Positions 44,181 to 45,923 of a stretch of 64,000 bases of DNA are shown here, piece by piece (position 1 is the first letter of the stretch; each line of letters begins with the position of its first letter). The notes under the pieces were generated by a model. It was given only the letters and a program-made list of their open reading frames with translations. It was not told the origin of the DNA and did no database searches. The stretch lies in the NCBI RefSeq assembly GCF_023650955.1, contig NZ_CP098039.1, positions 2,232,001 through 2,296,000 of the forward strand. Direction: 5' to 3'. The position numbers and the translations under genes were made by a program. Source of the DNA: Thermosynechococcus sp. HN-54. GTDB lineage: Bacteria; Cyanobacteriota; Cyanobacteriia; Thermosynechococcales; Thermosynechococcaceae.

Positions 44181-44912
44181 ATGGTTTCTGTCACGCCGTC
44201 TCGCGCTAGTGGGGGTGCCAATGCCATGACCCCTGCCCAAGGCTACAAGCATCAGTTACACCACACCCATCCCACGCGCACCAATCATTACAGTCTCCGG
44301 GATTATCTTCAATTTGATAGCCAACGCGGGAGCATTACCGATTGGTACGATCAGCGGGTAACCCTAGTGACAGAAGATTTTGTTATTGGCTTAGTGGAAG
44401 GCCTTGAAGAGGAAGTCGGCTCCGCCTCTGCTTTGGTGATGTACAGAATTGGCGAAGAGTGGGGCAAGCGGGATGCTGTGCTCTTCAAGCAACACTTTGA
44501 GCAGGAGTATCAGCGGGAGCTGCGCAAGTCCGCCCTGACATTTATCTTGGAGGCGTGGTGGTGGCCATTTACCACTCAGGGCGGGGGTAACTGGGAAGTG
44601 GATCTCACGGAGCAAAAGAATGGTTTTATGTTCATTAATATCTTTGACTCCGTGGTGGCGCGCTCCCTTGGGGATGTGGGTAAACCCGTGTGCTACATCT
44701 ACGCGGGTCTCTTTGCCGGTTTCTTTACAGGACTCATTCAAAAGCCCCTCAGCTGTATCGAGTTGCAGTGCTATGCCATGGGGGAAACCTACTGCAAGTT
44801 TTTGGTTGGTAAGCAGGATCGCATTGATGCTGCCGCCTTCTGGCAAAACGAGGGAGCCACGGCACGGGATATTGAAAAACGTCTGCGCCAAGGGGAGCTG
44901 GTGAAACGATAA
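44181..44912 (+). CDS. V4R-domain protein, Slr0144-like
   Basis: The 243-residue protein has a helical N-terminal half with ITDWYDQRVTLVTEDFVIGLVEGLEEE. A V4R (4-vinyl reductase-like) domain follows at about 130-225, with YIYAGLFAGFFTGLI and IELQCYAMGETYCKFLVG. V4R domains are small-molecule binding modules also found in BchJ. It resembles Slr0144 of the Synechocystis slr0144-slr0152 photosystem II assembly operon as I recall it. Two phycobiliprotein-like genes follow on the same strand within 46 and 22 bases. Confidence 0.82.
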   Translation: MVSVTPSRASGGANAMTPAQGYKHQLHHTHPTRTNHYSLRDYLQFDSQRGSITDWYDQRVTLVTEDFVIGLVEGLEEEVGSASALVMYRIGEEWGKRDAVLFKQHFEQEYQRELRKSALTFILEAWWWPFTTQGGGNWEVDLTEQKNGFMFINIFDSVVARSLGDVGKPVCYIYAGLFAGFFTGLIQKPLSCIELQCYAMGETYCKFLVGKQDRIDAAAFWQNEGATARDIEKRLRQGELVKR

Positions 44913-44957
44913 GCCACAGGTGAGTGTGTTCATTTATTTTCTAGCGAGGGTTGCCCT

Positions 44958-45431
44958 ATGTTCCGTCAGTTGAATCACTTAACCGTTGTCGCCGATGGTC
45001 GCTATGCCCGGCCGGAGGAATTAAATTTTCTGCGGGAGTACTTGGCCTCGGTGGAGACTCGCATCAGTGCCTACGAAAAAATCCGCGCTGAGGCGGAAAT
45101 GATGGCGGATAAAATTCAATCCATGCAAAAGGCAGAAAATCCCCGCTGTTTTCATTTGATCAATGGCGATCGCTCAGAAATTTGCCGTCGTGACTTGGTG
45201 GATACAATTCGCCTATGTGCTTCGGCAATGCTCTTTTCCGAGTTGGATTTGCTGCGGGATAACTTCCTGCTCTGGTATCGCACCATTGTCAAATCCTTTA
45301 ACTACGAGGTGTCTTCCTCCTCCACCTATGGCAAGTACCTGCCGAACATGACGAAGCAACTGCTCACGCCCGAAGAACAACGGGTGATGCAGCCTGTCCT
45401 TGCCCTCGGCAGTTCAATTTTGTCAGAATAG
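44958..45431 (+). CDS. Phycobiliprotein-like protein with C-x-R-D motif, paralogue 1
   Basis: The 157-residue globin-like protein has a phycobilisome-type start (ARPEELNFLREYLASVETRISAYEKI) and CRRDLVDTIR. There Cys76, Arg78, Asp79 and Arg85 match the C-x-R-D-x5-R of bilin-attaching Cys84 in phycocyanin and allophycocyanin. The C-terminus (QPVLALGSSIL) also fits. It is shorter than the roughly 161-172 residues of antenna subunits. It is about half identical by eye to the next gene, so they are tandem paralogues. Whether it carries a bilin is unknown. Confidence 0.8.
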   Translation: MFRQLNHLTVVADGRYARPEELNFLREYLASVETRISAYEKIRAEAEMMADKIQSMQKAENPRCFHLINGDRSEICRRDLVDTIRLCASAMLFSELDLLRDNFLLWYRTIVKSFNYEVSSSSTYGKYLPNMTKQLLTPEEQRVMQPVLALGSSILSE

Positions 45432-45452
45432 AGTTGTTGTGGGGTAGGACTT

Positions 45453-45923
45453 ATGCTGCGTCAATTGGAAAAACTCAGCCTTGAGGCGGACGGTCGCTAT
45501 GCTAGTGCCAAGGAACTAGAATTTCTCAGAAATTATCTAGCAGCAGCGGAGCAGCGCATCAGTGCCTACGAAAAAATCCGCGATGCTGAGGAGAAAATCC
45601 TTGATCAGGTGGAGCAGCAACTGCGCGCCAAAAGTCCCCACATCTTCCGTAAGGGCAACCAAGACTATTCGGCGGTGTGTCGGCGCGATCGCAAGCATGT
45701 GCTGCGCCTAGCGGCAGCGGCCATGTTATTTGCCGATCTCGATGCCCTGCGGGATGGCTTTTTGCTGTGGTACCGCACGATTATCAAGGCCTTCAAGGAC
45801 GAGAAGGTGGCGCAAGTGACGTACCAAGTCCTGCCCCAAGCGGTCAATCAAGTGCTCTCGGGCGAGGAAACACCGTTAGTGCAGCCTGTGATGGCACTTA
45901 CCCAGTCCATCCTAGGGGAATAG
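45453..45923 (+). CDS. Phycobiliprotein-like protein with C-x-R-D motif, paralogue 2
   Basis: The 156-residue protein aligns without gaps to its upstream neighbour over the first 85 residues, including RYAS..EL.FLR.YLA and RISAYEKIR. It has CRRDRKHVLRL with the same Cys76, Arg78, Asp79 and Arg85. After that, ALRDGFLLWYRTIIKAF parallels the neighbour. It lies 21 bases downstream. Together with the V4R gene it suggests a bilin- or chlorophyll-related role, which is inference. Confidence 0.8.
   Translation: MLRQLEKLSLEADGRYASAKELEFLRNYLAAAEQRISAYEKIRDAEEKILDQVEQQLRAKSPHIFRKGNQDYSAVCRRDRKHVLRLAAAAMLFADLDALRDGFLLWYRTIIKAFKDEKVAQVTYQVLPQAVNQVLSGEETPLVQPVMALTQSILGE

Follow-up and report, generated by a model that had tools for sequence, protein, structure and literature searches.

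We propose that three adjacent genes of Thermosynechococcus sp. HN-54 form a displaced, duplicated branch of the Pap (Slr0144-Slr0152) system, in which one V4R-domain gene is followed by two tandem globin genes whose products would carry a bilin on Cys76 and aid the assembly or repair of photosystems, with no part in light harvesting. We hold this reading as a whole with moderate confidence, and the identity of the two globins as cyanobacterial 'bilin biosynthesis-associated globins' (BBAGs, the Slr0149 family) is near certain. The three genes lie on the + strand of the window, the whole stretch of 64,000 nucleotides that was analysed. The V4R gene (44181..44912, with a possible alternative ATG start at 44226) encodes a clade A, Slr0144-like paralogue of 243 residues (PF02830, 1.1e-21). 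It is followed after 45 bp by BBAG copy 1 (44958..45431, 157 residues) and after another 21 bp by BBAG copy 2 (45453..45923, 156 residues), and the two copies are 52% identical. A preliminary description of this DNA had named a V4R gene and two tandem phycobilisome-family globins of 157 and 156 residues, and the open reading frames and Pfam matches bore this out. The C-R-R-D that it placed at residues 76-79, together with Arg85, was present in both globins, and the codons of this putative bilin attachment site are at 45183..45194 in copy 1 and at 45678..45689 in copy 2. No promoter-like site was found for the trio, and on the + strand every terminator-like site fell within a gene; the trio would be a compact unit that is probably co-transcribed. 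The three nearest named loci, with 93-96% identity to the first query sequence in the best segment, were Thermosynechococcus MAGs. One protein was also searched against viral contigs, an approach that detects close relatives only, and no viral relatives were found.

Profile searches and structural modelling, which the preliminary description had suggested as checks, placed the globins within the Phycobilisome family. The Pfam scores against PF00502 were 41.9 bits for copy 1 (1.3e-10) and 67 bits for copy 2 (2.4e-18), and since both exceed the cut-off of 22.2 bits, the assignment of the pair is well above chance. In a sequence search of the PDB, the best matches of copy 2 were allophycocyanin alpha chains, with CRRD aligned on CLRD. 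The AlphaFold2 model of copy 2 (pLDDT 87.4, pTM 0.81, the first 20 residues being weaker) had the allophycocyanin fold, matching the allophycocyanin chain 4po5_A over the whole length with a TM score of 0.84 and giving its highest Z score, 18.3, with 8ddy_A (2.4 Å over 153 residues). A long helix was predicted for residues 73-93, with Cys76 close to its N-terminal end.

Since the top Foldseek match of this model was an allophycocyanin B structure and both window globins have a Cys84-type site, the pair might be taken for a minor or specialised antenna, or for a phycobilisome-core subunit that passes energy on. We consider this very improbable. Neither globin came near the cut-off of any antenna equivalog model (37.5 bits at best versus 270), and the identity to the allophycocyanin subunits among the listed structure matches was only 13-26%. 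In a tree made by a quick method, with long branches and no bootstrap, a starred branch (99) parted the BBAG and Slr0146-like rows from the genome's six antenna-type subunits. The residue at position 106 is Trp in all 137 BBAG rows that have a residue there but Gly in 6/6 antenna-type subunits, and residue 89, which is Tyr in 6/6 antenna-type subunits, was never Tyr in 91/91 rows. The genome already encodes six antenna-type subunits, for which the names ApcA, ApcB, ApcD, ApcF, CpcA and CpcB were assigned from sequence, and an ApcE-like gene, whereas the gene context of BBAGs is V4R and Fe-S. The fluorescence yield reported for three characterised BBAGs, one BBAG-3 (3%) and two BBAG-2, was 3-7% (PMC10151467), and the same paper places the BBAGs close to where the light-harvesting phycobiliproteins are rooted. 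On the equivalog cut-offs, the tree and the gene context we reject an identity as antenna subunit, in agreement with the earlier view that these are not normal antenna subunits.

Rockwell et al. 2023 (PMC10151467) described Slr0149 as a cyanobacterial BBAG, located in the slr0144-slr0149 cluster, and the 'apcA' genes of Acaryochloris have been reassigned to slr0149 (PMC6002478). These reports and the gene order at related loci uphold the likeness to the slr0144-slr0152 region that had been noted for this window. The Slr numbers used here were assigned by family and gene order, and the link to Synechocystis was made by way of gene order and locus L029 of Synechocystis salina rather than PCC 6803 sequences. 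Among 87 fetched BBAG loci, the Fe-S gene was directly upstream of the BBAG in 61, and the full collinear order of V4R-A, Slr0146, V4R-B, Fe-S and BBAG was observed in 35, including L029 and two Acaryochloris plasmids. On these plasmids the order was V4R, Slr0146-like, V4R, 2Fe-2S and BBAG globin, and the globins were 53-54% identical to copy 2.

The main cluster of the HN-54 genome (locus L015, C1:1486-1492 kb) consists of V4R-A, Slr0145-like, Slr0146-like, V4R-B, 2Fe-2S, TPR and Ser/Thr kinase genes. By family and order, the genome as a whole has counterparts of V4R-A, Slr0145, Slr0146, V4R-B, 2Fe-2S, BBAG, TPR and kinase, and they are found at two loci rather than in a single contiguous operon. 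In the window (C1:2276-2278 kb), V4R-A is the sole adjacent cluster-type gene. Because the rest of the cluster is about 780 kb away and has no BBAG, we regard the trio as a displaced, duplicated branch: L015 is the slr0144-slr0152 cluster minus slr0149, and the window holds the missing gene doubled, plus an extra V4R-A. Compared with the Pap operon of Synechocystis, the window has the V4R-A and BBAG components and L015 has the remaining genes in corresponding order, but the set is split over two loci, with one extra copy each of V4R-A and BBAG. The window globins share with the cyanobacterial BBAGs of PMC10151467 the family, the CxRD site and the association with V4R-A, V4R-B and Fe-S genes, whereas they differ from them in being outside the main cluster, in tandem, and adjoined by a clade A V4R gene alone. 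Duplications within a cluster and of whole clusters are mentioned in that paper. The BBAG-1 and BBAG-3 of heterotrophic bacteria are also CxRD-bearing globins in V4R/Fe-S clusters (PMC10151467), but in those clusters a bilin reductase is present, mostly accompanied by a heme oxygenase, and both of these are elsewhere in the genome of the window.

Two further features of such clusters were observed. The Slr0145-like protein of the main cluster (L015:4159-4731) matched no Pfam family and by eye had about five short FFxxLNWxG-type repeats. Typical cyanobacterial BBAG cluster genes were also present on contigs L028 and L030, which are labelled Candidatus Gracilibacteria and Tatlockia, and this suggests that the two contigs are misbinned cyanobacterial DNA.

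The V4R partner belongs to clade A, in which Cys was found at positions 171 and 197 in 80/80 of the rows scored as clade A, and Glu194 and Cys205 in 74/80 each; the window protein has all four residues. In clade B, position 194 was Gln in 60/64 rows and position 205 was Asn in 59/64. Rows shorter than 150 residues and duplicates were omitted from the V4R alignment and tree, and six of the 80 rows scored as clade A fell with clade B. Residues C171, E194, C197 and C205 of the window protein align with the Cys/Glu/Cys/Cys tetrad of MopR, which we take to be zinc-binding. The Foldseek matches of the window V4R model were PoxR, MopR and DmpR, with a TM score of 0.46 to PoxR, and since the model itself is of low confidence (pLDDT 65.4), it only weakly suggests a likeness to these phenol-sensor structures. 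In DmpR the zinc ligands are Cys151, Glu172, Cys177 and Cys185 (PMC7264223). Unlike MopR, PoxR and DmpR, the window protein had no AAA+ or DNA-binding domain in the Pfam search. V4R proteins are reported as missing from most Gloeobacterales, and their role was given there as unresolved (PMC13326532).

The tandem arrangement appears to be old. A relative at 1e-20 was found in 27 of the 29 genomes of the family, and the tandem pair in 13 of the 29, that is, all 11 of the window's genus together with G274 and G400. Copy 1 formed one clade (13 rows, support 99) and copy 2 another (13 rows, support 83) in a quick tree made with no bootstrap; because each copy forms a single clade, the duplication is, from the sequences, probably older than the split of the three genera. 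The V4R genes of the pair arrangement likewise formed one clade of 13 rows, with a support of 100. Residues D13, C76, R78, D79, R85 and W106 were kept in 13/13 of each copy across the three genera, and the copies were distinguished by 12 near-fixed differences (at least 12/13 in each copy). In family genomes that do not have the pair, residue 76 of the single-copy forms included Phe (G290, G394 and G395), Ser (G399) and Gly (G398). In G388 the BBAG frame (L182:1166-1692) was split into two overlapping frames, by either a sequencing error or a pseudogene.

When both window globins were aligned with the six antenna-type subunits encoded in this genome, their C76, R78, D79 and R85 fell on residues common to all six. 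The shared columns 76, 78 and 79 agree with the match to the Cys84-type bilin site that was proposed earlier, and the alignment with the antenna-type Cys, Arg and Asp would orient Cys76 toward the pocket. The environment of the site is unlike that in antenna proteins, with Trp106 in place of Gly, and this counts against the favored reading. Arg85, which had been counted as part of the same evidence, does not belong there: it is kept in BBAGs with Trp at position 76 and in 56/56 Slr0146-like globins, none of which has CxRD, and is therefore no evidence of bilin binding.

Bilin binding was reported for BBAG-1, BBAG-2 and BBAG-3 of other bacteria (PMC10151467). In that work, bilin uptake in E. 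coli was seen with one representative each of BBAG-1 and BBAG-3 and needed no lyases; the BBAG-1 was poorly chromophorylated, and the uptake of phycocyanobilin by the BBAG-3 was notably better. A CXRD motif is noted there in some cyanobacterial BBAGs, and the sections on BBAG characterisation describe no bilin test on any cyanobacterial BBAG. Because these homologues took up bilins in E. coli, it is likely by homology that the window globins also carry a covalent bilin.

Not all members of the family have the Cys. Sequences were counted as BBAGs if they scored above 80 bits against a profile of four sequences; the globins of L137 (G010) and one of G280 (L138), which scored no higher than 70-74 bits, were assigned to the Slr0146-like group and could be divergent BBAGs, and a partial match in G448 was outside the fetched set. 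In a phylum sample of 386 genomes, 54 had a BBAG, with Cys only in 32, Trp only in 17, both in 4 and Phe in 1. With the addition of the named loci and of two families that were searched in greater depth, residue 76 of the 138 distinct BBAGs was Cys in 91, Trp in 40, Phe in 3, Ser in 2 and Gly in 1, with 1 fragment, and the full CxRD was present in 69. The motif is thus not a general mark of orthologues. Its absence from orthologues, which the preliminary description had regarded as counter-evidence, was observed for a large part of the family and not in the window branch, where 13/13 of each copy retain it. The codons of Cys and Trp are one base apart. Loci L037:3036-3521, L092:3202-3726 and L144-L150 are examples of the variation among orthologues.

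Arg78 was found in 70/91 Cys rows versus 7/40 Trp rows, whereas Asp79 was found in 136/137 BBAGs, including 40/40 Trp rows. A coupling of C76 with R78 was considered and dropped, as the starred branches gave 3 independent pairs and significance was out of reach. On the best tree, for which columns 76-79 were excluded, the Cys/Trp label required 6 changes, 3 of these being forced by starred branches; the split L182 rows were omitted, and a tree made by this quick method, with no bootstrap and with long branches that meet, gives no firm direction for the changes. One genus of the Microcoleus-like family had both forms, with Cys in 17 and Trp in 11 of 28 genomes. The Trp type was found in 1/35 full collinear loci versus 26/52 loci outside this group, a count made on non-independent loci, some of them copies of a single contig. 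Four genomes had one Trp-type and one Cys-type BBAG each, namely G171 (L113/L130), G326 (L114/L131), G340 (L128/L135) and G187 (L129/L133), and their Cys-type BBAG was found in a different order, Fe-S, V4R-A, BBAG and V4R-B.

Since Cys76 is replaced by Trp in 40 of the 138 BBAGs and is another residue or missing in 7, the core function of BBAGs would not depend on a covalent bilin everywhere. In our view, the family can most likely do without covalent attachment but not without a property that requires Asp79, perhaps the binding of a non-covalent tetrapyrrole or the fold itself. The same variation could mean that these globins are purely structural scaffolds, that CxRD is an inherited remnant, and that they carry no pigment in vivo or an adventitious one. 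The replacement of Cys76 in many orthologues (by Trp, Phe, Ser or Gly), the repeated Cys/Trp changes, the two forms within one genus and the poor chromophorylation of the tested BBAG-1 are all in its favor. So are the Slr0146-like globins of the same clusters, of which 0/56 distinct sequences had CxRD (L138 has CKYD) and 45/56 had His or Asn in place of Asp79; the member in this genome is at L015:4744-5226. Against a scaffold role, however, C76, R78 and D79 have been kept in every copy of the window branch since before the three-genus split, D79 is retained by nearly all BBAGs even without the Cys, and the tested BBAG-3 took up phycocyanobilin notably better than the BBAG-1. We therefore judge the scaffold explanation unlikely, although it deserves weight, and prefer a bilin-carrying role for the window pair.

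This genome encodes two heme oxygenases and a single bilin reductase, read as pcyA, on which the supply of bilin would depend. The pcyA gene (L015:12615-13481) is 3.4 kb downstream of the kinase gene of the main cluster. It was 7-8 kb from the Slr0146-like gene in 7 of the 11 genomes of the genus (this genome and six with a similar placement), and the pre-PcyA clusters of other bacteria typically encode a heme oxygenase and a bilin reductase together with the BBAG (PMC10151467). These two observations would suit a pair that serves as a bilin store, chaperone or buffer, taking new bilin from PcyA and handing it on or detoxifying it. However, pcyA was unlinked in G406 and was found in none of the other fetched stretches, which had flanks of up to 8 kb in most cases and 1.5 kb in many; G402 had no Slr0146-like match at the cut-off, and in G405 and G407 the two genes were on different contigs. 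For these reasons the proximity was read as genus synteny, and an ancestral linkage of pcyA with the cluster was rejected. Handing a bilin on also fits poorly with covalent attachment, and we think a role in bilin storage or transfer quite improbable.

In the reading that we favor, a displaced BBAG/V4R branch of the Pap system, each BBAG would fold like an allophycocyanin subunit and have a single phycocyanobilin or other related bilin attached to Cys76. Arg78 and Asp79 would hold the bilin, and the fluorescence would be low. The BBAGs may join the V4R protein, and the Fe-S, TPR and kinase products of genes elsewhere in the genome, in a complex on the thylakoid, as suggested by analogy with Synechocystis, where Slr0144-Slr0149 were placed on the thylakoid membrane and affinity purification with Slr0149-GFP supported their interactions (PMC9880817). 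Such a complex would build or repair photosystems, the bilin being a structural or status-reporting ligand rather than an antenna pigment. This function is a guess guided by the Synechocystis work, in which the operon was tied to photosystem II function (PMC9145668, PMC4853703), an earlier link to photosystem I is cited (PMC4853703), and photosystem functions are assigned by some studies to slr0150-slr0152 (PMC10151467). The suggestion that the window globins are an assembly factor or a sensor, made in the preliminary description, is likewise something that we infer.

A more specific version can be imagined, which we offer as speculation and consider distinctly doubtful. The tandem BBAGs would make an alpha/beta-like heterodimer of antenna-independent origin with two bilins and, together with a zinc-bearing V4R protein, control photosystem assembly as a gate that responds to bilin or light status. 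This gate would have switched repeatedly between a covalent form (Cys76) and a non-covalent or pigment-free form (Trp76), with Asp79 nearly always kept.

The novelty of these findings is modest, because the core idea of non-antenna CxRD globins of the slr0144-slr0149 cluster is already in print (PMC10151467). The main text of that paper does not contain 'Trp', and the Trp form may appear in its supplement, which has a family tree with motifs. In the texts consulted, we met neither the switch between Cys and Trp nor the tandem branch displaced from its cluster. A deletion of the pair would leave the TPR and kinase genes of the main cluster intact; in Synechocystis, the counterparts of these genes complicate the reading of phenotypes. 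This thermophile, whose two copies are stable, adjacent and Cys-bearing and stand apart from the main operon, would therefore allow a clean test of whether the bilin is important, and the natural switch between Cys and Trp provides matched proteins that may show what a covalent bilin adds.
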